Below are positions 46,191 through 63,994 of a DNA stretch of 64,000 nucleotides, one piece after another. The DNA is from Clostridia bacterium (GTDB taxonomy: Bacteria; Bacillota; Clostridia; Christensenellales; Christensenellaceae), in NCBI GenBank assembly GCA_014805015.1, contig JAAUYQ010000093.1:62001-126000 (forward strand), written 5' to 3'. A model generated the notes under the pieces. It saw only the letters and a program-made list of their open reading frames with translations, was not told the DNA's origin and did not search any database. Position numbers and translations under genes: made by a program. Position 1 is the stretch's first letter. Every line of letters starts with the position of its first letter.

Positions 46191-50705
<4,515 letters not shown>

Positions 50706-50735
50706 ATCAAACAGCAGCCGCTCCGGGCCGCACCC

Positions 50736-50741
50736 ATTATA
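50736..50741 (-). promoter_or_regulatory. Candidate -10 element of parE-parC
   Basis: TATAAT preceded by seven A, about 150 bases before the parE start. A TTGACA is 25 bases upstream, too far for a normal spacer; no other -35 is evident. Confidence 0.35.
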
Positions 50742-50770
50742 TTTTTTTAGCACACGCTCGGCCGGATGTC

Positions 50771-50794
50771 AAAAAAGCCGCCCAAAGGCGGCTC
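50771..50794 (-). terminator. Intrinsic terminator after the purine permease gene
   Basis: GCCGCC/GGCGGC, loop of four, followed by six T (50771-50776) on the minus strand, about 115 bases after the stop codon. Confidence 0.85.
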
Positions 50795-50907
50795 CATTGA
50801 GCTTGCTCTCTGTCTCCTTTTCAGCAGCCTGGTGCAGCCGGTCACGCCGTGGCGTCACGCTCGTCGGCTTTCACGATACAGTCCGGCGCAGGCTGCCCAG
50901 CCTGCCG

Positions 50908-52404
50908 TCAGCCAATCACAATCGCCCGCATGATATAGTAGATGACAAAGAGAATGACGATTCCCCACATGATACCGCCGACCTCACGGGCCTTGCCGCT
51001 GCAGACCTTGCAGATGGCGTACGTTATGAACCCGAATGCGATACCGTCGGTAATGGAGCTCATGAAGCCCATGCACAGGATCGTCATGAAGGCCGGGGCC
51101 GCGGAAGTGAAATCGTTCCAGTTGATCCGCGAAAGTGGTCCCATCATAAGGATACCAACAATCACAAGTGCCGGTGCCGTCGCGGAGTTCGGGACGATGC
51201 CGGCAATCGGGGCAAACAGAAGCGCCAGCGTGAACAGGATGGCAACGACCACACTTGTCAGTCCGGTACGCGACCCTTCGTTGACGCCGCTGACACTCTC
51301 GACAAACGTTGTGACGGTCGATGTTCCGAACAGGGCGCCTGCTGCCGTAGCCAGCGCATCAGCCATCAGGGCATTGTTTGCCCGCGGCAGCTGTCCCCTG
51401 CTGTCGAGATATCCTGCCTTTTCCGCCGTCGCAATAATCGTGCCCATGGTGTCAAACATATCAATCATCAGGAAGGCCAGAATGACCGTGATAAAGGAGA
51501 TCACCTGGACAAAAACCGAAGGCCCGACAAACATGGCGCCGAAATCGAGCTGCATGAATGTCTCTGCCATGCTGATCGTTTCTTCCCCCGTGGCCAGATT
51601 GGCAATCAGCATGGCAACGCAGGCAACCAGGCATGCGCCGGTCAGCCAGCCGAAAATCTTCCTCTCCGAGATTGACCACAGTATGACCATCAGGACCATG
51701 CCGGCAAACGCCACAAACCCGCACACAGCAATCGGTGATACGTCGACGCCTGCAAGACTGGTGACCGTGCCGCCGTTCCCGTCCGGAAACATCAGGCCGA
51801 TGACTGTGGTCGCCACAATGCCGATTAGGATGGCACCCTTGATCCCGAGCACCATCAGCACAATCATGATGATCAGCCCCACGATCGCGAGCTGCATGTT
51901 CGGATCCATCAGGCTGCCGATGTAAAAACCGTCTTCAGAAAGACTCAGCATCGAGCCGTTCTTCAATCCCAGTGAGGCGATAAAAACACCAATTCCCGCA
52001 CCAATCGCGTACTTCATGTCACGCGGCACCGCGTTCAGGATCTTACCTCTGGCGCCGGACAGCGTAATCAGGATAAAGATAACACCGGAGATAAAGACGG
52101 CCGCCAGCGCTCCCTGCCACGTCCAGGCCATGGCGCCGCAGACGGTGTATACAAAAAAAGCATTGAGCCCCATGCCCGGCGCCTGCGCAAACGGATAGTT
52201 GCTCATCAGGCCGATCAGCAGCGTGCCGACCGCAGCCGCCAGACAGGTCGCGACCATGACGCCATTGTAGCCCATCCCAGAGCCGGACAGGATGCCTGGG
52301 TTGACGAAGATAATGTATGCCATCGTAAAAAACGTGACAAAGCCGCCGACCACCTCTGTCCTCAGGGATGTATGATTCTGCTTGAGTTTGAAAAATCGTT
52401 CCAT
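50908..52404 (-). CDS. NCS2 family purine permease (guanine/hypoxanthine type)
   Basis: 498 residues with about 12-14 hydrophobic segments. The N terminus FFKLKQNHTSLRTEVVGGFVTFFTMAYI (in part), APGMGLNAFF and the later DMFDTMGT motif place it in the AzgA/PbuG/PbuO branch of NCS2 proton-coupled nucleobase importers. Exact purine is unknown. It is a single-gene unit with its own promoter, leader hairpin and terminator between ftsZ and parE. No purine riboswitch is recognisable in the short leader. Confidence 0.92.
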   Translation of the reverse strand: MERFFKLKQNHTSLRTEVVGGFVTFFTMAYIIFVNPGILSGSGMGYNGVMVATCLAAAVGTLLIGLMSNYPFAQAPGMGLNAFFVYTVCGAMAWTWQGALAAVFISGVIFILITLSGARGKILNAVPRDMKYAIGAGIGVFIASLGLKNGSMLSLSEDGFYIGSLMDPNMQLAIVGLIIMIVLMVLGIKGAILIGIVATTVIGLMFPDGNGGTVTSLAGVDVSPIAVCGFVAFAGMVLMVILWSISERKIFGWLTGACLVACVAMLIANLATGEETISMAETFMQLDFGAMFVGPSVFVQVISFITVILAFLMIDMFDTMGTIIATAEKAGYLDSRGQLPRANNALMADALATAAGALFGTSTVTTFVESVSGVNEGSRTGLTSVVVAILFTLALLFAPIAGIVPNSATAPALVIVGILMMGPLSRINWNDFTSAAPAFMTILCMGFMSSITDGIAFGFITYAICKVCSGKAREVGGIMWGIVILFVIYYIMRAIVIG

Positions 52405-52527: not shown

Positions 52528-53730
52528 TCAGTAATCGGAACGGTTGCGGCGCGGTTTCTTTTTGAGAAAAGGCGGTATCTCAAGCGCACTGTCGGGGCCA
52601 TAGGCATCTCCGCCGAGTGCGGTCGTATCGTGCACTTCGTGGAAGTCCTGCACGGCCGGCCTCGGAGGCTCCTCACGCCGCTGCGGCTCTGTCTCCGGCG
52701 TATCCTGAAACTCAATAACCTCCTCGAGCTTCTTGCGCCCCTGGCCGGCCGCTTCCCGCGGCTCTTCCGCTGCCGGGGCATCGAATCCCGTGGCAATCAC
52801 CGTGATGCGCACCTCGTCATCCAGCGAGTCATCAATACACACTCCGAAGAACACATCTGCATCAGGATGCGCACCTTCCCGGATGATCTTGGCCGCCTCC
52901 TGGATTTCGTACATGCTGATATTACTGTCGCCGGTCACATTAATGATGATGCCCCGGGCGCCCTCAATCGACGTGTCGAGAATCGGCGAATTGATCGCCA
53001 TCTTGGCTGCATCCACCGTCTTGTTGTCGCCAACGCCGGTGCCGATGCCCATGTGGGCAATGCCGCGCAGCGTCATGACCTTCTTGACGTCCGCAAAGTC
53101 AAGATTGATCAAGGCCGGCTTGCCGATCAGGTCAATAATGCCCTGGATTCCCTGCCTTAGAACATCATCTGCTTCCTTGAAGGCGTCCACGATCGGGGTA
53201 TCCTTGCCGACTGTGGAGAGCAGTTTGTCGTTCGGGATACCGACAATCGTGTCCACCACAGATTTGAGATCCTCAAATCCAGCGGCTGCGACTTTCTCGC
53301 GCGGTTTGCCCTCAAACCAGAACGGACGCGTGGCAAAACCGATCGTCAGCGCGTCATTCTGCTTGGCAAGCTCCGCAACCACTGGAGCGGCGCCGGTTCC
53401 GGTGCCGCCGCCAAGACCGCACGCAACGAAAACAAGATCTGCACCCTTGACCGACTGTTCGAGTTCTTCGCGGCTCTCTTCTGCCGCCCGCCGCCCGATT
53501 GACGGGTCGGCTCCCGATCCCAGACCTTTGGTGAGCTTCTCCCCGATCTGAATCTTCTGGTCCGCTTTGGACAGAAACAGCGCCTGTTTGTCCGTGTTCA
53601 CGGCAATCAGCTCAGCACCCTGGACTCCGAAGTCAATCATCCGGTTGACTGCGTTGTTTCCTGCACCGCCGACTCCGTATACCCGGATCTTCGCAAAATT
53701 CTCGCTGTTATTGTCGAACTCGAGCGCCAT
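52528..53730 (-). CDS. ftsZ: Cell division protein FtsZ
   Basis: 400 residues, tubulin-like GTPase forming the division ring. [16 protein letters not shown] is the tubulin signature, and [17 protein letters not shown] opens the fold. [11 protein letters not shown] is the T7 synergy loop region. A linker rich in Glu, Pro and Arg (about 325-380) leads to the C-terminal peptide [13 protein letters not shown] that binds FtsA. Strong ribosome-binding site GGAGGAG. Confidence 0.97.
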
Positions 53731-53771: not shown

Positions 53772-54944
53772 TCAGTATATTTCTTCCTGCTTGCCGAACA
53801 GGCCGCGCTTTTTCTGCTTCGGCTTGACGCCAAGGTCTCCGTAAGCATACTGCAGCATCGCATACGAGGCGTGCAGATTCGGGTCTGACAGCTTGATGCT
53901 GTTCACATTGATCGGCAGCGGTGTCCGGCCGGACACTGACTTGAAGAAACTGTTTGCGCCCCGCATGAACGATATGCCGCCCCCGGTGAGGAATATATCC
54001 AGCTTCTTTTTCAGGTTGACCTCCGCCGACGTCACAATCTGCATGACAAATTCGACAATCTGTTCGACTCTGGCATCGATGATTCCTTTTACCACATCGT
54101 AAGGGTACTTGCGCAGCTTACCGCCGCTGTCTTTTATGTACATGTACGGAATGCTGCCGTTGGCTGCCAGTCCGAATGAATAGCGGCGCTTGAGCTGTTC
54201 TGCCGTGTCCGCATCTACCTTCATGACATACGCAATGTCGGCGGCGATGTTGGCGCCGCCGAGCGGAATCGTGTCAAAATGCAGAACCGAATCTCCGTAG
54301 ATCACGGAAACATTGGTAGTACTATACCCGATGTCCACTAAAACTGCAAGATCATCACGGTTCTCCTGGGGGACAAGATAGAGCGCCTGCGCGAGCGGCT
54401 CAGCGATAAACGAATTGAGTCTGACTCCCATGTGCCGGAGCAGTCCGGCCACATCGTTCAGAAAAAAACGGTTCGCAAACGTGAAGGAAATCGAGCCGCG
54501 CATCCGCTTCGAGTTGACGCCGGCCGGATCGAGGTAGATGTTCCCGTCATCAAGCAGAAACCAGGAAGGCACCGCCTCGAGCATCACCATGCCCTCCTCG
54601 CTTTCCACCTGCGAGGCCTTGTCCACCAGGTGGTCTATATCCTGTTCACTGACCCGTCCGTTCGTGGAAATCTGGGCGGTGCGGTTGGCTATCTGCAGGA
54701 AGGATCCCGGAATTCCAACATCCACATTGCGCAGCCGGTAGTCTGCCTGATGTTCTGCGGCGGAGAGCGCTTCTTCCAGGGCGTAGTAGACCCGCTCGCT
54801 GTCCACCCAGTTGGAATTCTTGATCCCGGCATAGGGAACCTGGGCGCAACCAAGCACCTCCAGTCCCTTGCGCGGCTTCTGCTCAGCAATCGTGCACGTG
54901 ATCTTGGACGTTCCGAATTCGACAATGGATCTGCAGTCCCTCAT
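53772..54944 (-). CDS. ftsA: Cell division protein FtsA
   Basis: 390 residues, actin-like. VEFGTSKITCTIAEQ is the phosphate-1 loop, LVDIGYSTTNVSVI phosphate-2 and FLTGGGISF the adenosine motif. FtsA tethers FtsZ to the membrane. The C terminus (KKRGLFGKQEEIY) is short and lacks the long amphipathic helix usual in FtsA. AGGAGAG lies 35 bases before the ATG with a small stem between, so no close ribosome-binding site is seen. A candidate promoter lies at 55002-55029. Confidence 0.94.
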   Translation of the reverse strand: MRDCRSIVEFGTSKITCTIAEQKPRKGLEVLGCAQVPYAGIKNSNWVDSERVYYALEEALSAAEHQADYRLRNVDVGIPGSFLQIANRTAQISTNGRVSEQDIDHLVDKASQVESEEGMVMLEAVPSWFLLDDGNIYLDPAGVNSKRMRGSISFTFANRFFLNDVAGLLRHMGVRLNSFIAEPLAQALYLVPQENRDDLAVLVDIGYSTTNVSVIYGDSVLHFDTIPLGGANIAADIAYVMKVDADTAEQLKRRYSFGLAANGSIPYMYIKDSGGKLRKYPYDVVKGIIDARVEQIVEFVMQIVTSAEVNLKKKLDIFLTGGGISFMRGANSFFKSVSGRTPLPINVNSIKLSDPNLHASYAMLQYAYGDLGVKPKQKKRGLFGKQEEIY

Positions 54945-55035: not shown

Positions 55036-55941
55036 TCAGGTGTCATCGTCCTCATTGCCGATTGTCTCCGACGGCTCCGGCGAAGCCGTCCCCTGCCCTG
55101 TTTCCTCCGGCTCCGGCAACGCAGAAGTGCCTGATGAAGGTGATGACGCAGAAGAGCCCGGTGACGGGGACGGGGACGGACCTGGCCGGGAGGCCTGATC
55201 CTCATCGTACATGGTATACGTTGCAAACGAACCGGAAGAGACATCCAGAAGTCCGTCTGACTCCCCTTCCCGCGCCAGTGCCGGCAGGCGGTTCTGGATC
55301 CACTTGATCTTGTCCCCGATCCGCTCTGCCTGGCCGATGCGGATGGCCAGGCCGTCCCGCGACTCCATGCGGATGTTATTGATGTTGGAAAGATCCACGA
55401 CCGCAATCAGCGGAAAAAGGCTGCGGCTGTCAAGATCAAGCAGAATCTCCTGCATGATCGCTATTTTGAAGGCATCCTCCGTGACGATCTCGCTGCCGAC
55501 TTGCGGATCGGTGACAGAGATTCCCTCCACCAGCGGGCACTCAACGGATTCGTCACTTTCCGTGATCTCAAGAATATCCGTATTGATATCAATCAGCAGA
55601 AACTGGTTTCCGTAAGGCAGGAATGCAGCGGGACGCCGCTCCTCCACTTCAATGATGACGGTGTCCGGCAGCTGGCGCCGCACTGCTGTCACCTGCAGGT
55701 ACGGCTCGACGCTCTGGACGTTGCTGCGCACTCGCTCCTCGTTCACTTCGAGCATATGCGTGCCTTCGGCAATGTCGGCAATGGCACGGATGTAGGCCGA
55801 GGTGAACCGGGCATTTCCCGCCGGAATGACGCTGCGTACCTGGAAATACTCATAGACAAAGTAGCCGAGCCCCGCGATGAGCACAGCCACAATCAGAAGC
55901 AGAGCAATGCGGCGGGCGGGCGAACTTTTGCGGTGGCTCAT
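55036..55941 (-). CDS. ftsQ: Cell division protein FtsQ/DivIB
   Basis: 301 residues. One N-terminal transmembrane helix (about 12-32), then a POTRA domain (about 37-110; VIPAGNARFTSAYIRAIADIAEG in part) and the beta domain. The C-terminal 60 residues are Ser, Pro, Glu and Gly-rich and probably disordered in the wall space. It bridges FtsL/FtsB-type proteins. ATGA overlap with ftsW at its start; murG, usually between them, is absent. Confidence 0.9.
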   Translation of the reverse strand: MSHRKSSPARRIALLLIVAVLIAGLGYFVYEYFQVRSVIPAGNARFTSAYIRAIADIAEGTHMLEVNEERVRSNVQSVEPYLQVTAVRRQLPDTVIIEVEERRPAAFLPYGNQFLLIDINTDILEITESDESVECPLVEGISVTDPQVGSEIVTEDAFKIAIMQEILLDLDSRSLFPLIAVVDLSNINNIRMESRDGLAIRIGQAERIGDKIKWIQNRLPALAREGESDGLLDVSSGSFATYTMYDEDQASRPGPSPSPSPGSSASSPSSGTSALPEPEETGQGTASPEPSETIGNEDDDT

Positions 55942-57101
55942 GAGGACGGGACCGGCGGCGTGTGCTTGCTCGGCACAGCAATGCGGATGCGCTGTGCCTG
56001 CCTGGAGATGTTCAGCATGATGCCGACCATGGCCATAAAGATGACCAGCGAGGAGCTGCCGTAGCTGAAAAAGGGCATCGGCACGCCGGTAACGGGCATC
56101 GAGGCGGTGGCAACGGCGATGTTCATGATCGCCTGGATGCCGATCAGAGAGCTGATGCCGGTGGCAAGCAGGGTCCCGAACAGATCCGGGGCCGAGGCTG
56201 CGATGCGCACGCCCCGGTAGATGAGCAGGACAAAAAGACCGATGAGCAGAACCGAACCAACCAGGCCGACCTCCTCAGCCGTGATGGAGAAAATGAAGTC
56301 CGACTCACCGTACGGGAGCCACAGATATTTCTGGCGGCTGTTGCCGAGGCCGCGGCCGGTAAGGCCGCCTGCTCCGATTCCGTAGAGCGACTGAATGACC
56401 TGCCAGCCGCCGTTCTGGGCGTACTGCCAGGGATCGGCGAATGCCGTCACCCGGCGGGCCCGGTAGTTCGCGACCATCAGCAGTGCAAAGCCGAGCGTGC
56501 CGCCGACCGCGGCGAGCAGGCCGAGCTGTGCACCCTTGGCGCCACCCACGTACATCATGATGAAGACCAGCAGGCAGAGCAGAATGACGGAGGAGAAATT
56601 CGGCTGAAAGAAAAGCAGCAGGCACATCAGGAGCAGTACCAGCAGGTTCGGCAGAATGCCATAGCGGAAACTGTCCATGCGGTTGCGGTTCACATAGATC
56701 GTGGCCGCCGTAAAGATCACCATCGCCAGCTTGGCGATCTCGGCCGGCTGAAAGGCGGGCAGCGGCCCGAGCTTGATCCAGCGCGAGGAACCGTTCAGAT
56801 TGACGCCGATGCCGGGAATGAAGACCACAACCAGCAGAATCAGGGAGATAATCAGGATCACATACTTGAAACGGATCAGGCTGCGGTAGTCAATGAACGC
56901 CAGCAGCAGCATTGCTGCACAGCCGATGACAGCACCGGCGGCCTGCCGCTTGAACAGATAGAAGCCGTCATAGTCATAGAGCGCAGACGCCTGCGCCTTG
57001 TAGTAGCTGGCACTGAAGACCATGATGAGTCCATAAACCACGATGACCAGGGTCACGATCATCAGGACGTAGTCCAGATGCCGGCGAGACTTCTCCTTCA
57101 T
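55938..57101 (-). CDS. ftsW: SEDS peptidoglycan glycosyltransferase FtsW
   Basis: 387 residues, about ten transmembrane segments. GVNLNGSSRWIKLG and FQPAEIAKLAMVIF are SEDS motifs; the catalytic Asp is in LPYGESDFIFSITAEE, and GVPMPFFSYGSSSL is the C-terminal signature. It polymerises lipid II at the septum with a class B PBP. ATG 57101 with AGGAGG is used; the open frame to 57389 overlaps murD. Its likely PBP partner, encoded at 61013-63193, lacks catalytic residues. Confidence 0.95.
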   Translation of the reverse strand: MKEKSRRHLDYVLMIVTLVIVVYGLIMVFSASYYKAQASALYDYDGFYLFKRQAAGAVIGCAAMLLLAFIDYRSLIRFKYVILIISLILLVVVFIPGIGVNLNGSSRWIKLGPLPAFQPAEIAKLAMVIFTAATIYVNRNRMDSFRYGILPNLLVLLLMCLLLFFQPNFSSVILLCLLVFIMMYVGGAKGAQLGLLAAVGGTLGFALLMVANYRARRVTAFADPWQYAQNGGWQVIQSLYGIGAGGLTGRGLGNSRQKYLWLPYGESDFIFSITAEEVGLVGSVLLIGLFVLLIYRGVRIAASAPDLFGTLLATGISSLIGIQAIMNIAVATASMPVTGVPMPFFSYGSSSLVIFMAMVGIMLNISRQAQRIRIAVPSKHTPPVPSS

Positions 57102-57114
57102 CCTGCCTCCTCTT

Positions 57115-58503
57115 CTACAGTGCCATGACCAGTGACTTAAAGTGCCGCCCGCGTTCCTCGAAGCTGGCGTACATGTCCCAGCTGGCGCAGGCCGGTGAGA
57201 GCAGGACGGCATCGCCCGGCTCGGCGATGCGGGCGGCCTCGCGGACGGCTTCCTCCAGATCGGCGACTGGCTGCACCGCGCTGAAGCCGGCAGCGGCAGC
57301 TGCCTCCAGAATTTTCTCCTTGGTCTCGCCCAGAACCAGAATCTGCCTGACCGTACGGAAAGATGCAAACAGCTCAGCAAAATCCGCATGTTTGTCGAAG
57401 CCGCCCAGAATGAGAACGGTCGGCTGCGTCACAGCCTCAACGGCCTTGATCGTGGCGTCCGGATTCGTGCCCTTGCTGTCGTTGATGTAGATCACACCGT
57501 TCCTGGTCGCGACAGTTTCGAGCCGGTGCTCCACGCCCGCAAAAGTGGCAAGCACTTCGGCCACCCTGGAGGCCGGAATCCCGTATTCCAGTGCCAGTCC
57601 GGCTGCAAAGAGGGCGTTCTGCAGATTGTGCCGTCCGGGAAGGCATACATCGGCAGCACGCATGACGCGCTGCGCATCGCCTCCCCGCCGCCAGACGATC
57701 CAGCCGTCCGCAATGGACATGCCGTCCCGCTCTCCGGGCCCGAGCGTCACCAGCCCCGTATGCAGTCCGATCCGCATCCTCGCATAATCAGCAAGCTGCC
57801 TTGAGACCGGATCCTCGCCGTTAATCAGGGTATAGTCAAGACCGCCCTGGTTCTCGAGAATGCGTCTCTTGGCCGCTGTATAGTTCTCCATTGTGCCGTA
57901 GCGGTCAAGGTGGTCCGGGGTCACATTGAGCACTGCGCTGCCAAACGGATGGAACCGGTCAATGGTGTCAAGCTGCAGCGCTGCTGTCTCCAGCACGACA
58001 ACATCGCCAATCTCCGTTTCCAGCGCATGCGCGCTGAGCGGGTCGCCGATATTGCCGAGTACGTACGTGTTTTCGCCGCCAGCCTTGAAGATTTCTCCGG
58101 TGAGAGCCGTCGTGGTCGTCTTGCCGTTGGTGCCGGTGATGGCAATGAAGTCCGCCGCGGACAGCTGGTAGCCGAGCTCAATTTCGCCCACGATGGGCAG
58201 CCGGCGCCGGCGTGCCTGCTCAAGATACGGCAGACTGAGCGGCAGACCCGGGCTCACGACCAGCACGTCTGCCCCGTCCAGGGCCTCTTCCGGGCTGCGG
58301 CCCAGATAGTCCGCATAGCGCAGTGCGTGGAGAGCTTCCTGCGTGCTCTGCGGCAGTTCTGCCGGTGTGCGGCGGTCATGCAGCAGAAGTTCCGCTCCCA
58401 GCCGGGAGAGGGTCTGTGCCGCCGCGACGCCGCTCCGGGCCATACCGCATATCAGAACTCTGCTCTTCGTCCAGTCCCGGGACCACCGTCTGTCGTCTGT
58501 CAC
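57115..58503 (-). CDS. murD: UDP-N-acetylmuramoylalanine-D-glutamate ligase
   Basis: 462 residues. It adds D-Glu to UDP-MurNAc-L-Ala. VLICGMARSGVAAAQTL is the nucleotide-binding N-terminal fold, ITGTNGKTTTTALTG the ATP P-loop, NVTPDHLDRYG the central motif and YINDSKGTNPDATIKAVE the C-terminal block. GTG 58503, ten bases after the mraY stop and with GAGG eight bases upstream, is chosen over an in-frame ATG at 58539 that overlaps mraY. Confidence 0.95.
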   Translation of the reverse strand: MTDDRRWSRDWTKSRVLICGMARSGVAAAQTLSRLGAELLLHDRRTPAELPQSTQEALHALRYADYLGRSPEEALDGADVLVVSPGLPLSLPYLEQARRRRLPIVGEIELGYQLSAADFIAITGTNGKTTTTALTGEIFKAGGENTYVLGNIGDPLSAHALETEIGDVVVLETAALQLDTIDRFHPFGSAVLNVTPDHLDRYGTMENYTAAKRRILENQGGLDYTLINGEDPVSRQLADYARMRIGLHTGLVTLGPGERDGMSIADGWIVWRRGGDAQRVMRAADVCLPGRHNLQNALFAAGLALEYGIPASRVAEVLATFAGVEHRLETVATRNGVIYINDSKGTNPDATIKAVEAVTQPTVLILGGFDKHADFAELFASFRTVRQILVLGETKEKILEAAAAAGFSAVQPVADLEEAVREAARIAEPGDAVLLSPACASWDMYASFEERGRHFKSLVMAL

Positions 58504-58513
58504 TTCTCCCACC

Positions 58514-59542
58514 TCACACAAACGCGCTGAGCACAGCAATCATGCTCAGAACCACCGTTACGATCATATAGCCGCCCACGACCCGTGTTTCCGGTATGCC
58601 CATGAGCTCAAAATGGTGATGCAGCGGCGCCATGCGGAACACCCGCTTGTGGCGCAGCTTGAATGAACCCACCTGGATAATGACAGAAACAGAGCTCATT
58701 ACATACACAAAGCCCATGATCGGCAGCGTCAGCTGCAGTTCCAGTGTCGTGGCTGCTACCGTCAGGGCCGCACCAAGGGCAAAGGAACCCGTATCGCCCA
58801 TGAAAACCTTGGCCGGGTGCCGGTTGAAGCAGAGGAAGCCCAGGCAGGCTCCGACCAGTGCCATCAGAAAGATGCCTGTGTCAGCGATGATGCCGTCCGC
58901 GCCGATCAGTGCCTCGCCGCCGGCCAGAAGCAGCGCCGGGTACAAAACCACAACGATCGCAAACAGCGCGGCCCCGTTTATCATAACGCAGCTCGCCGCC
59001 AGACCGTCCAGACCGTCTGTCAGGTTGACGCTGTTCACCATCGCCAGAAAGACGAACATCGTGAAGGGAACGTAGCCGCGGCCGAGGTCCCAGAACTCCC
59101 GCGTAAAAGGGATGAGCTCCTGATGCTGATCCATTCCGGCGTACGAATAGACGGCGACAAACACCGCTGCCGCCAGCTGCAGGACGATCTTCTGCCAGGC
59201 ACGCAGCCCCAGGCTCCGCCGCCGGATCAGCTTGATGAAATCATCCAGGAATCCGATCAGGGTGAAGGCAAGCGTGCCGCAGACAAGGAAGAACACAGCG
59301 CCGGCGGAGCGGGCATCTGAATAGAATGAAAGCAGCAGCACCGCGCAGAGCAGCCCCATCACAATCATGATGCCGCCCATGGTCGGCGTACCTTCCTTGG
59401 AAAGATGCGACTTGGGACCGTCCTCCCGCACGTGCTGCTCCAGCTTCCGGCGGCGCAGCACCGGGATCAGCAGAGCCGAAGCTGCCGCAGTGACCGCCAG
59501 TGCCACGCACAGCGCCAGCAGCGCCCGGATACCAAAATTCAT
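58514..59542 (-). CDS. mraY: Phospho-N-acetylmuramoyl-pentapeptide-transferase
   Basis: 342 residues, ten transmembrane segments. It makes lipid I. GPKSHLSKEGTPTMGG near the N terminus, VNLTDGLDGLA (catalytic Asp) and FMGDTGSFALGAAL are the family motifs; APLHHHFELMGIPE contains the HHH motif. ATG 59542 is chosen; a GTG three codons upstream is also possible. It directly follows murE, where murF normally lies between. Confidence 0.96.
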   Translation of the reverse strand: MNFGIRALLALCVALAVTAAASALLIPVLRRRKLEQHVREDGPKSHLSKEGTPTMGGIMIVMGLLCAVLLLSFYSDARSAGAVFFLVCGTLAFTLIGFLDDFIKLIRRRSLGLRAWQKIVLQLAAAVFVAVYSYAGMDQHQELIPFTREFWDLGRGYVPFTMFVFLAMVNSVNLTDGLDGLAASCVMINGAALFAIVVVLYPALLLAGGEALIGADGIIADTGIFLMALVGACLGFLCFNRHPAKVFMGDTGSFALGAALTVAATTLELQLTLPIMGFVYVMSSVSVIIQVGSFKLRHKRVFRMAPLHHHFELMGIPETRVVGGYMIVTVVLSMIAVLSAFV

Positions 59543-59559
59543 AGGCCGCACCTCACCTC

Positions 59560-61002
59560 TCAGAAGCCCAGTTCGTCCAGAAGTTCCGCCACCACAATCT
59601 TCTCGTCAAACGGATATTTGACGCCCTTGATTTCCTGGTAGTCCTCGTGTCCTTTTCCGGCGAGTACGATGACATCGCCCGGACGAGCCCTGAGCAGGGC
59701 TGCCCGGATTGCCTCCCGGCGATTCTCGATAGTCTCCCTGACCGTGCCTTCCGGGACGCCGGCCTCAATGTCCGCAATAATAGCCATCGGATCCTCGAAG
59801 CGGGGATTGTCTGAGGTGACAAAAAGCCTGTCCGCCCCCCGTGCCGCAATTCCCCCCATCTGCGGCCGTTTGCCGGCATCCCGGTTGCCGCCGCAGCCGA
59901 ACACGACCATCACTTCGCCCGCTGCGAAATCGCGCACCGTACGCAGAACGTTCTCGAGACTGTCCGGCGTGTGTGCGTAGTCGAGGACGACCGAGAAACC
60001 CCCGCCCCTTGTGTCGAGCGGTTCCACGCGCCCGGCCACGGGCGGCATTTCCCGGAAAGCAGCCCGCAGATCGTCCGGCTGCAATCCCAGTTCGAGTGCT
60101 GCGGCCGCCGCTGCCATGCTGTTGTAGACGGTGAAACGGCCTGGAATACCAACCTCAATCGGGATCTCCCGGCCGGCTGCCCTGAGAATGTAACGGACCC
60201 CGGCAGGATCCATGTGAATGTCGCAGGCGCGCACGTCGCCCTCACGCAGTCCGTACGTGACGCAGCGGCCGGAAGCGGACGCAAGCATCCGCTGGGCGGC
60301 CGCATCGTCCAAATTGATCAGGCTGACGCTGCTCGCCGCAAACAAGCGCTCTTTGGCCGCCGCGTAGTGCTCAAACGTACCGTGAAAATCGAGATGGTCC
60401 TGCGTCAGGTTGGAAAAAATCCCGACGTCAAAGTGCATGCCGTGAACGCGGTCAAGCGCCAGGGCGTGGGAGGAAACTTCCATAACCACGAGGTCGCACC
60501 CGGCGTCTGCCATCTGCTCAAGCAGAGCCTGCAGGTCCGGCGACTCAGGCGTAGTACGCTCCGTGTGCAGCTTCTCGCTTCCGATCATGTTGCAGATCGT
60601 GCCGATCAGTCCGACCCGCAGTCCGGCTTTTTCCGCAAGGCGCTTGATCATGTACGTCGTTGTGGTCTTGCCGTTGGTGCCGGTGATACCGACCATCCGC
60701 ATCCGCCGTGACGGATGACCATGGAAAGCACAGGCCGCCTCAGCCATCGCCTGCCGGTCATCTTCCACCTGGACGACCGCCGCATCCACTTCCGTATGCG
60801 GCTCCCTGCTCATCACGGCCGCGGCCCCGCGTCCGCAGGCATCCGCAGCGAACCGGTTGCCGTCCGCTGCGAGTCCACGGATGCAGAAGAAAAGATCGCC
60901 GGGCTTCACCAGGCGCGAATCATACGCCAGACCGGTGATCTCCGTGTCAGGATCCCCGGTAAGCTGCACCCGGCTTAGGTCAAACAAATCTCTGAGTCTC
61001 AA
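59560..61002 (-). CDS. murE: UDP-MurNAc-tripeptide synthetase (meso-DAP type)
   Basis: 480 residues. ITGTNGKTTTTYMIKRL is the ATP loop, NLTQDHLDFHGTFEHY the central motif, and SDNPRFEDP carries DNPR, the mark of meso-diaminopimelate-adding MurE. It thus predicts DAP-type peptidoglycan. Start is TTG 61002 with GAGAGGG five bases upstream. It follows the penicillin-binding-protein gene by ten bases. Confidence 0.95.
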   Translation of the reverse strand: MRLRDLFDLSRVQLTGDPDTEITGLAYDSRLVKPGDLFFCIRGLAADGNRFAADACGRGAAAVMSREPHTEVDAAVVQVEDDRQAMAEAACAFHGHPSRRMRMVGITGTNGKTTTTYMIKRLAEKAGLRVGLIGTICNMIGSEKLHTERTTPESPDLQALLEQMADAGCDLVVMEVSSHALALDRVHGMHFDVGIFSNLTQDHLDFHGTFEHYAAAKERLFAASSVSLINLDDAAAQRMLASASGRCVTYGLREGDVRACDIHMDPAGVRYILRAAGREIPIEVGIPGRFTVYNSMAAAAAALELGLQPDDLRAAFREMPPVAGRVEPLDTRGGGFSVVLDYAHTPDSLENVLRTVRDFAAGEVMVVFGCGGNRDAGKRPQMGGIAARGADRLFVTSDNPRFEDPMAIIADIEAGVPEGTVRETIENRREAIRAALLRARPGDVIVLAGKGHEDYQEIKGVKYPFDEKIVVAELLDELGF

Positions 61003-61012
61003 GCTGTCCCTC

Positions 61013-63193
61013 TCAGTTCACGTCTATGCGGAAAGTCACTGTCACCGTCGCTCCCCTCTCCACCGCGGCTCCGGCTACCGGCGACTGCGTCACAGCAGTG
61101 CCGGTACCCTGTGCAAGGAATGTGAGGCCGGCCCGCCTCGCTGTCTCCATCGCCTCATCAAAGTCCATGCCGATGAAATTCGGCACTGTTGTCTGGCCGC
61201 CAGGCAGCGTTGTCTCTGCGTCCTGCGAACTTGAGCGCACACTCATTTCGAGCTGCACAGTGCTGCCCCGTTCCACTTCAGTCCCCGCATACGGATACTG
61301 CCCGTTCACAGTACCCGTACCGTCTGCCTTCACTTCGAGCCCCTGCTCGGCAGCGGCCTCAAGCGCGGAACGCAGATCAAGACCGACCAGTCTCGGGACC
61401 GGCACCATACTCGGCAGCGAACTCGGCTCAGCTCCGTTTTCATCTGCCGACGGCTGCGAAGCCGGTTCCGACGGCTGCACGCCTGAATACAGCAGTGTGT
61501 CACGCAGCACCGACTGTACATACTCCTCAAGGGCCGTTTCACTGTTCACCGCATCCGCAGGGCCCTGAGCCGTCATGAAAACCAGGAACCGGGGATCGTC
61601 AGCCGGCGAAAATGCAGCACACATGCTGACGCACTGGCTGCCCGAGTTTTCCAGACTGTCCTGCGGCTGCAGCGCCGCAGCCGTGAGAACGCCCGCCGTG
61701 TAGCCGCTCAGGAAACTGCCCTCAAGCGCCTGCTCATCCGTAATGATCGTCTGAATCCGGTCCGCAGTCGCTGCGCTGACGGCGGTCGATACCATCTCTG
61801 TATGATATGTCTCCGTTGTCTGGCCGCTGGTGTCTTCCAGTTCGAGAACAAGCTGCGGGGTCTTGAGCGTTCCCGCATCCAGCAGCGCCGCGATCGCATC
61901 GATCAGCTGCATCTGCGTCACTTTCAGCGAGACACCGCCGCCCATACGCGCCACTTCCGCTTCGGTCGCGTACTTCATTTCCATCAGAGAGCCCGCGTTG
62001 TCTGCCGTAACCTCAATTCCGGTCGGGCTGCCGAAGCCGAAATCTCCGAGGTAGGAATAGAAATCCTGCAGACCGATGTCCGTGGCCATATATCCGGCAG
62101 CAACCACGCACTGGTTCGCGACAGCCTCATCAAAAGTCTGGGTGCCGTGCACATCCGGACAGGCTAGCTCCACACCGTCGATCGTGGCTGCGCCGTTGCA
62201 GACATATGAGCTGCGCAGATTGTCCGAGTCATACGCAGCCGCAGCTGTAAAGACGGAAAAGATCGCGCCCGGCTCAAAAGCCCGGGCAGTTACGATGTTC
62301 GTGCCTTCACGGAGCAGCTGCTCAGAATCGCTGCGGGGCGGATCGTTGAGGTCGAAGGAAGGGGCGTTCGCCATAGCCAGGATCTCACGCGTTGCCACAT
62401 CCATAATCGTTCCCTGGATGCTGTCAGCTCCGAGGGACTCGAGTGCCTCCTGGCAGGATTCCTCAAGGAAACTCTGGATGACTTCGTTGATGGTCAGAAC
62501 CACGTTCTGTCCGTCCACCGGCTCAATGATCATTTCATCCCCATTGGGGATGTCATTGTTGAGACGGTCTGTTTCCGCTATTGTTCTCCCCTGCCGGCCC
62601 TCGAGCACAGAGTTGAAACGCCGCTCAATGCCGGTCTGGCCATCGCCGTCCATCGAGGTGTAGCCAACGACCTGGGAAGCAAGCGACCTGTTCGGATAGT
62701 AGCGCTGGATATCCGCAATCAGCTTGACGCCGTCAAGGTTCAGTTCCTCGATGGCCGCGCTCTGCTCCGCTGTGATCTGGCGCTTGATCCAGACTTCGTA
62801 GATGTCGTGCTCCGTACCGTCGCTGTCGGTCCGCGTCTTGGTCGAGGCCTTGGTCAGCAGGTCAGCACGATCAAGATCGAGGATCTCAGCGAGCTCACTC
62901 GCAACAGTCTCCGGCTCCTCGACCTCCTGCGGCAGCAGCACGACCGTATCCGCACCGGCGCTCTGCGCGAGCACATTGCCGCTGCGGTCGAGGATAGAGC
63001 CGCGGTGGGCGCTGACCACGGTATCAGAGATCCACTGGTTCTGGGCCTCCCGTTCCAGATCCTCACCCCTGATGAGTCCCCAGTAGGCGATTCTCGCGAT
63101 AAGGAGCACGAAAACAGAAGTCAGCACAATGAAGATTACCGACAGACGTGTCCTGCTCGTCAGGATTTTTCCCTGAACTTTGCTTTCCACCAC
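61013..63193 (-). CDS. FtsI/SpoVD-type penicillin-binding protein with degenerate active site and two PASTA domains
   Basis: 726 residues: transmembrane helix (about 15-37), dimerisation domain with RGSILDRSGNVLA, a transpeptidase fold, then two PASTA repeats (about 585-650 and 655-726). The fold aligns well around the catalytic sites, but each motif is changed: EPGSTFK is EPGAIFS (Ser and Lys lost), the SXN site reads ANQCVVA, and KTGTA reads VLTAA. It should neither cross-link nor bind beta-lactam covalently. The frame is intact and sits at the ftsI position, so it is probably a structural partner of FtsW. Start is GTG. Confidence 0.88.
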   Translation of the reverse strand: MVESKVQGKILTSRTRLSVIFIVLTSVFVLLIARIAYWGLIRGEDLEREAQNQWISDTVVSAHRGSILDRSGNVLAQSAGADTVVLLPQEVEEPETVASELAEILDLDRADLLTKASTKTRTDSDGTEHDIYEVWIKRQITAEQSAAIEELNLDGVKLIADIQRYYPNRSLASQVVGYTSMDGDGQTGIERRFNSVLEGRQGRTIAETDRLNNDIPNGDEMIIEPVDGQNVVLTINEVIQSFLEESCQEALESLGADSIQGTIMDVATREILAMANAPSFDLNDPPRSDSEQLLREGTNIVTARAFEPGAIFSVFTAAAAYDSDNLRSSYVCNGAATIDGVELACPDVHGTQTFDEAVANQCVVAAGYMATDIGLQDFYSYLGDFGFGSPTGIEVTADNAGSLMEMKYATEAEVARMGGGVSLKVTQMQLIDAIAALLDAGTLKTPQLVLELEDTSGQTTETYHTEMVSTAVSAATADRIQTIITDEQALEGSFLSGYTAGVLTAAALQPQDSLENSGSQCVSMCAAFSPADDPRFLVFMTAQGPADAVNSETALEEYVQSVLRDTLLYSGVQPSEPASQPSADENGAEPSSLPSMVPVPRLVGLDLRSALEAAAEQGLEVKADGTGTVNGQYPYAGTEVERGSTVQLEMSVRSSSQDAETTLPGGQTTVPNFIGMDFDEAMETARRAGLTFLAQGTGTAVTQSPVAGAAVERGATVTVTFRIDVN

Positions 63194-63202
63194 GGGCAGG
63201 CC

Positions 63203-63994
63203 TCAGTCTCCGGAAGCAGCCGCGTCTGCACTGCTCAGTTCCGTCTGCCCACTTTCCAGCATGACCGTGTCAAGCCAGGCAGCGATCGCGCCCAGCAGGC
63301 CGTCCGGTGCACTGCTGCTGCCCTGGCTGAGGGTCAGGGACGGCACAGCTTTCACTTCGTCAGTTGCATCGAGGTCCACATATTCAATCTGCGCATCATC
63401 CGGGTTGCTCAGTCCGAGAGCAGAAGCCCGCTCCTGTATATTGCCCAGATCCTCTTCCAGGGCGATCTGCATTTTCAGCTTGCTGATCCTCTCTTCCATT
63501 TCGGCAATACTGTTTTCCAGGCCCGCGTTCTGCTGCGAGTAGTTAGAGAGGCGGGCTCTGCCCGCCAGCACTCCTGTAAGCAGCACAAAGCAGATCGCGA
63601 TCGTTAGGATTGTGGTGATCACCGAGCTCGCTTTGAGCGGCCGGACGTGCGAATCCGCAGGCGCTGAATCTGTGCCGTACGCCCCCATGTCAAAACCGAC
63701 AACACCGTTTTTCATAAGCGGAGCACCGTTCAGTTTTGTCCGTGGGCGGTCATTGGTTTTGTTCTTGTAGGTGGGCGTAAGTTTCCGCCCGTGTCCGTTG
63801 CCTTTGACGGGATGCTTTTTTGGCTTCTGTTTTTTGGCAGCCGCAACGGCGTTCGGCGTCACAGAGTGGAAATCTGTCACCGTATCCCGCTGTGGGCGGC
63901 CGCTGGGGCGTGCCGCCGGACGCTGCCGTGCGGACTTTACGGCAGCGGGTCGGGCCGCCTGCTGACTTTTGGACTGGGGTTTGCTCGGCTGCAC
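63203..63994 (-). CDS. FtsL-like cell division protein
   Basis: 263 residues from GTG 63994; the window ends six bases beyond, so the true start could lie outside. A basic N-terminal region of about 120 residues rich in Lys, Arg, Pro, Ala and Gln precedes one transmembrane helix (about 124-146). A short leucine-zipper-like coiled coil follows (about 148-185, ENSIAEMEERISKLKMQIAL). Topology and position before the ftsI-like gene match FtsL. The cytoplasmic part is far longer than in typical FtsL (about 100-120 residues in total), and a further C-terminal tail has no known domain. Confidence 0.75.
   Translation of the reverse strand: MQPSKPQSKSQQAARPAAVKSARQRPAARPSGRPQRDTVTDFHSVTPNAVAAAKKQKPKKHPVKGNGHGRKLTPTYKNKTNDRPRTKLNGAPLMKNGVVGFDMGAYGTDSAPADSHVRPLKASSVITTILTIAICFVLLTGVLAGRARLSNYSQQNAGLENSIAEMEERISKLKMQIALEEDLGNIQERASALGLSNPDDAQIEYVDLDATDEVKAVPSLTLSQGSSSAPDGLLGAIAAWLDTVMLESGQTELSSADAAASGD

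Follow-up and report, generated by a model that had tools for sequence, protein, structure and literature searches.

Domain structure and gene neighbourhood

The window (the whole stretch of 64,000 nucleotides that was analysed) has a G+C content of 60% and belongs to a 2.70 Mb assembly of 102 contigs that is 97.8% complete. The genome appears to represent a sister genus to Christensenella within the Christensenellaceae. A frame of 726 codons opens with GTG at 63193 on the minus strand and runs unbroken to 61013; the plus-strand reading is broken by stops. Pfam recognises in its product a PBP_dimer region (residues 61-215), a Transpeptidase domain (residues 262-547, 111 bits for a cut-off of 22) and two PASTA domains. 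The top NCBIfam model is SpoVD (TIGR02214), with a score of 398 bits that lies under the equivalog cut-off of 688 bits, and the best PDB match is C. difficile SpoVD (7rcz, E 3e-68). A transmembrane segment, a PBP_dimer region, a transpeptidase fold and PASTA domains, together with a dcw position between an ftsL-like gene and murE, are the marks of SpoVD/FtsI descent. No second SpoVD/FtsI-type protein with PASTA domains was found in a whole-genome search of the window genome.

Reading the minus-strand translations gave the gene order ftsL-like gene, PBP gene, murE, mraY, murD, ftsW, ftsQ-like gene, ftsA-like gene and ftsZ (Table 1). The original prediction had described a protein with intact fold, PASTA domains and frame, at the ftsI position upstream of murE, and both the Pfam matches and the gene order agree with this description. 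An AlphaFold model of the protein, computed from an alignment of only three rows, reached a pLDDT of 46 and a pTM of 0.36 and was discarded. Elsewhere in the window, a 999-aa open frame on the plus strand (48676-51675) lies antisense to a gene of the gyrB/parE type (48628-50589, minus strand) and is probably a shadow frame of G+C-rich DNA.

Table 1. Features of the dcw region in the window, with the basis of each assignment.
Feature	Position	Strand	Basis
Pseudo-transpeptidase, SpoVD/FtsI-type class B PBP, 726 aa	61013..63193	-	translation, Pfam, NCBIfam, alignment
Single transmembrane segment, about residues 18-38	63080..63142	-	translation reading; position approximate
Pedestal / PBP_dimer region, residues 56-236	62486..63028	-	Pfam, orthologue alignment
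Transpeptidase domain, residues 255-552, catalytically dead	61538..62431	-	Pfam, orthologue alignment
PASTA domains (two), about residues 590-726	61016..61426	-	Pfam, orthologue alignment
Former SxxK motif, A310-I-F-S313 (S310A, K313S)	62255..62266	-	alignment with catalytic orthologues
Former SxN motif, Q361-C-V363 (S361Q, N363V)	62105..62113	-	alignment with catalytic orthologues
Former KTG motif, L503-T504-A505 (K503L, G505A; T504 retained)	61679..61687	-	alignment with catalytic orthologues
FtsL-like single-TM coiled-coil protein, directly upstream of the dead PBP	63203..63994	-	position, sequence reading
murE	59560..61002	-	recognised from translation
mraY	58514..59551	-	recognised from translation
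murD	57115..58539	-	recognised from translation
FtsW/SpoVE (SEDS), presumed partner; motif LPYGESDFI..EE intact	55938..57101	-	PF01098 match, alignment
FtsQ/DivIB-like protein	55036..55941	-	position, sequence reading
FtsA-like protein	53772..54944	-	recognised from translation
ftsZ	52528..53730	-	recognised from translation

Loss of the active site and of sporulation

Alignment with catalytic orthologues confirmed the loss of the active site in the dcw PBP of the window genome. All three transpeptidase motifs are gone, as had been predicted, through the substitutions given in Table 1. The KTG region had been read as VLT: the loss stands, but the register was one residue out, the GKTGT box aligning with V502-L503-T504-A505-A506. 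Nor do canonical motifs occur elsewhere in the chain. Residues 251-560 contain neither S..K nor K[TS]G, and their sole S.N (S323-D-N) lies at a non-homologous position, leaving the protein without the SxxK, SxN and KTG motifs of an active DD-transpeptidase.

The catalytic residues are lost in all nine members of the clade (the window genome, two genomes of genus g4 and six Christensenella), with replacements that vary from one to another (GNIFG/HCS, EELLH/GCN and GSIFN/GCS, among others). Dead orthologues thus also occur in cultured Christensenella, including C. minuta and C. massiliensis; we take genomes G004, G008 and G016 to be C. massiliensis, C. minuta DSM 22607 and C. timonensis, respectively. 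A recent mutation in the window copy was rejected, because the eight other clade members also lack the catalytic residues. An assembly error or a wrongly read frame might be suspected in an assembly of 102 contigs. This is hardly credible, since the single-contig isolate genomes taken as C. minuta DSM 22607 and C. massiliensis are likewise dead and the same state is found in seven separate lineages.

Motifs were read in 120 dcw orthologues from one order, counted by genome and excluding two C. tarantellae PBPs; beyond the order, a class-wide search covered the top-scoring matches listed, among which low-scoring and possibly dead orthologues would not figure. At least one motif is lost in 19 genomes from four families of the order (hereafter, dead copies), the SxxK lysine being the only residue lost in G038. 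The frame is intact in 18 of the 19. The remaining dead orthologue (G003:C9:9555-11911; L018/L041) is split in two frames at about query residue 400, by a frameshift or an assembly error. The SpoIVA-negative genome G020 yielded no clear orthologue (E 1e-4).

Motif loss followed the absence of sporulation genes. All 90 SpoIVA-positive genomes keep every motif, whereas at least one is lost in 19 of the 30 SpoIVA-negative genomes (Fisher p 9e-15). Of the 11 SpoIVA-negative genomes with intact motifs, eight carry gpr and are mostly incomplete, so that the missing SpoIVA there probably reflects incomplete assembly. The GPR (spore protease) model misses divergent lineages and therefore served as a second marker only. 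When either spoIVA or gpr is present, the motifs are kept (98/98); when both are missing, they are lost in 19 of 22 genomes. The three that keep them, G021, G071 and G113, may have lost sporulation recently, may have had spore genes missed, or may put the enzyme to another use. Neither spoIVA nor gpr was detected in the 97.8% complete window genome, which does not fit the sporulation role attached to TIGR02214. Cultured Christensenella are non-spore-forming by description (PMC8289216), in agreement with the gene markers.

A tree of 87 orthologues requires seven losses: in the window clade, G006, G001+G011, G038, G117, G157+G061 and G027+G374+G357. The tree, built by a quick search from the PBP sequence, contains some long dead branches. 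Because motifs lost convergently would tend to pull dead copies together, the count of seven is, if anything, low. Seven independent pairs all matched marker absence, and did so in all, or almost all, random pairings (sign test p ~0.016). Independently of the tree, losses are spread over four families, and two of the genera affected include catalytic sister species. The comparison thus supports a catalytic loss that recurred at least seven times, tracking the loss of sporulation.

Two further observations concern family f1. In the SpoVD tree it falls into two widely separated groups (the window genome with g4 and g5, and g2 with g3), which may reflect long branches, gene transfer or taxonomy. 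Two class A PBPs occur in its SpoIVA-positive genomes but one in its SpoIVA-negative genomes, with none found in G011; the extra PBP gene was apparently lost along with sporulation.

Selection on the dead copies

Between pairs of dead orthologues, dN/dS was 0.05-0.12, values that are approximate because dS is high (saturated). They indicate that the dead copies are under strong, long-term purifying selection. Constraint is unevenly spread along the protein. Pedestal pN/pS was about 0.05 in dead pairs versus 0.14-0.29 in catalytic pairs; in the dead pairs, the transpeptidase domain gave 0.12-0.22 and the PASTA domains 0.17-0.36. With the topology fixed, the ratio of summed branch length in dead to kept copies was 0.22 for the pedestal, 0.62 for the transpeptidase domain and 0.28 for PASTA. 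The median ratio of transpeptidase to pedestal terminal branches was 2.55 in dead versus 1.04 in kept copies (p 8e-9, an optimistic value as the rows are not fully independent). Of the positions with conservation of 90% or more among catalytic orthologues, the window protein retains 27 of 28 in the pedestal, 44 of 80 in the transpeptidase domain and 12 of 13 in PASTA. Such a distribution would be expected had the catalytic domain been freed and the domain contacting the SEDS protein held.

The gene could instead have become unneeded after sporulation was lost and be drifting slowly toward disappearance. The faster transpeptidase domain of the dead lineages, the split frame in G003 and the SpoIVA-negative G020 with no clear orthologue would suit such drift. 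It is nevertheless quite improbable: dN/dS stays far from 1 over saturated synonymous change, nearly all frames are intact, and the pedestal is under tighter constraint than that of catalytic relatives. These same features support selection for a non-enzymatic role, as the original prediction had proposed.

As for the nature of that role, the protein might be kept as a sensor: its PASTA domains would recognise muropeptides, or septal wall that lacks cross-links, and pass a signal to the divisome. Retention of nearly all conserved PASTA positions in the window protein speaks for this reading. However, in the same dead pairs PASTA is less constrained than the pedestal, and G157 retains fewer than half of the conserved PASTA positions. 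We consider a PASTA-based sensor rather unlikely, although PASTA may have a supporting role that is compatible with these data. Activation of FtsW fits better, because constraint concentrates in the pedestal and not in PASTA.

The old pocket might also catalyse another reaction, for instance through C362 of the former SxN loop. Indeed, this residue stays a cysteine in every dead orthologue, and the transpeptidase fold is still recognised by Pfam. But C362 is the ancestral state, the loop reading SCN in catalytic orthologues; the substituted residues vary among lineages; and, compared with the relatives, no part of the protein is less constrained than the transpeptidase domain. A re-invented enzyme is thus very improbable.

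A proposed role with FtsW, and likeness to known systems

Class B PBPs activate their SEDS partners through a pedestal-ECL4 contact (PMC8078798). The dead SpoVD has the sequence features of such an activator: its pedestal is conserved, and the catalytic motif of its presumed SEDS partner is intact. This motif (ESDFI..EE) is retained by the dcw FtsW in an alignment of 13 dead genomes; we take it to hold the catalytic aspartate, by comparison with E. coli FtsW D297. In the stretches examined of four genomes, G157 and G374, G357 and G006 (L194, L195 and L196, downstream of the dead SpoVD), FtsW was not found, so that the presumed partner is documented for part of the dead copies.

With SpoVD dead, septal cross-linking would fall to another PBP, as the original prediction had noted, and class B PBPs with intact motifs are indeed present in the window genome. 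One is a 786-aa lipoprotein of the MecA_N type (motifs GSTFK, SDN and KTG intact), related to the structures of E. faecium PBP5, MecA/PBP2a and PBP3. In addition, a 474-aa PBP adjoins a SEDS gene, an MrdA-type PBP lies close to a SEDS gene of the RodA type, and there is a single class A PBP; the remaining PBPs with readable motifs are canonical. MecA_N class B PBPs were found in 17 of the 19 dead genomes, the two misses being 68% and 72% complete. They also occur in catalytic relatives, so the redundancy probably predates the catalytic loss. Separately, G000:C13:31985-32858 (L004, L008) holds a broken second copy of the 474-aa SEDS-linked type, its transpeptidase split by a stop or frame change.

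Altogether, we propose, with a probability of roughly 0.7, that after the loss of sporulation SpoVD became a pseudo-transpeptidase kept as an activator of, or scaffold for, FtsW. In spore formers the transpeptidase of SpoVD would be required above all for the spore cortex, and cortex demand would keep it catalytic. Once sporulation is lost, only the activator role would be selected and the catalytic residues would decay. The dead SpoVD would be retained since its transmembrane segment and pedestal could activate and position at the septum the SEDS glycan polymerase FtsW, encoded four genes downstream. Septal cross-links would then come from another PBP, for which the MecA_N lipoprotein (PBP2a / B. 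subtilis PBP3 type) is the best candidate and the SEDS-linked 474-aa PBP or the class A PBP are alternatives. From sequence data, we infer that the dead SpoVD activates FtsW; the septal cross-linker is likewise a presumptive assignment.

Since the serine that would be acylated is now an alanine, the dead SpoVD should, as predicted, not be acylated by beta-lactams. Whole-cell resistance need not follow, as other PBPs stay targets: C. intestinihominis is reported to be susceptible to penicillin, ampicillin and piperacillin but to resist oxacillin (PMC7937921). The dead SpoVD bears on which targets beta-lactams reach in these gut bacteria.

Whether a division class B PBP is needed mainly as an enzyme or as a SEDS activator has so far been approached with engineered dead alleles. 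Evolution has run this experiment seven times or more; the trigger was consistently the absence of spore genes, and the pattern consistently a retained pedestal and a lost active site. As natural separation-of-function variants, the dead copies lend themselves to mapping pedestal-ECL4 contacts, and cultured species, C. minuta among them, allow the activator role to be tested. In the literature searched, whose coverage was incomplete (few subscription papers or preprints), no natural pseudoenzyme was described among FtsI/SpoVD-type PBPs. What was known before is the engineered allele; what is apparently new is natural, recurrent loss with an evolutionary pattern. We lean towards regarding these proteins as an obligate, repeatedly evolved natural class of pseudo-PBPs, in which several non-sporulating lineages of the order, cultured Christensenella among them, would split septal polymerisation (FtsW switched on by a dead SpoVD/FtsI with no other function) from cross-linking, done entirely by a different PBP.

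Among known systems, SpoVD itself (TIGR02214; 7rcz) shares with the window protein its domain order with C-terminal PASTA and its dcw position beside a SEDS gene; the window protein differs in lacking SxxK, SxN and KTG, in its score under the equivalog cut-off, and in occurring in genomes with neither spoIVA nor gpr. Vegetative division of C. difficile is driven by a class A PBP, the dcw SEDS/bPBP pair being confined to sporulation (PMC10693644). For this reason, we infer a vegetative role in Christensenellaceae from the retained and constrained gene pair. The same study described Firmicutes that lost sporulation as lacking the dcw SEDS gene, whereas non-sporulating genomes that keep one occur here (loci L070-L079, L189-L204), which runs against that generalisation.

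In C. difficile SpoVD S311A, asymmetric division is still supported but the cortex is not, and the SEDS partner SpoVE is required (PMC12713402). Catalysis is thus separable, the cortex needing it and septation only partly; that allele is engineered, and SpoVD there is sporulation-specific. A second bPBP aids the dead SpoVD in C. difficile without its own catalysis (PMC12713402), so that cross-linking by the MecA_N protein is not guaranteed.

The B. subtilis PBP2B S309A mutant divides when PBP3 is present (PMC5656894): a dead division bPBP supports division and a MecA_N/PBP2a-type bPBP cross-links. The same parts are present in the window genome. PBP2B S309A is, however, an engineered point mutant, whereas the loss described here is natural, ancient and repeated, with all three motifs gone in the window protein. 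More generally, pseudoenzymes that act as allosteric activators keep the fold, lose the catalytic residues and take a regulatory role (PMC5106787), as the dead SpoVD appears to do here.
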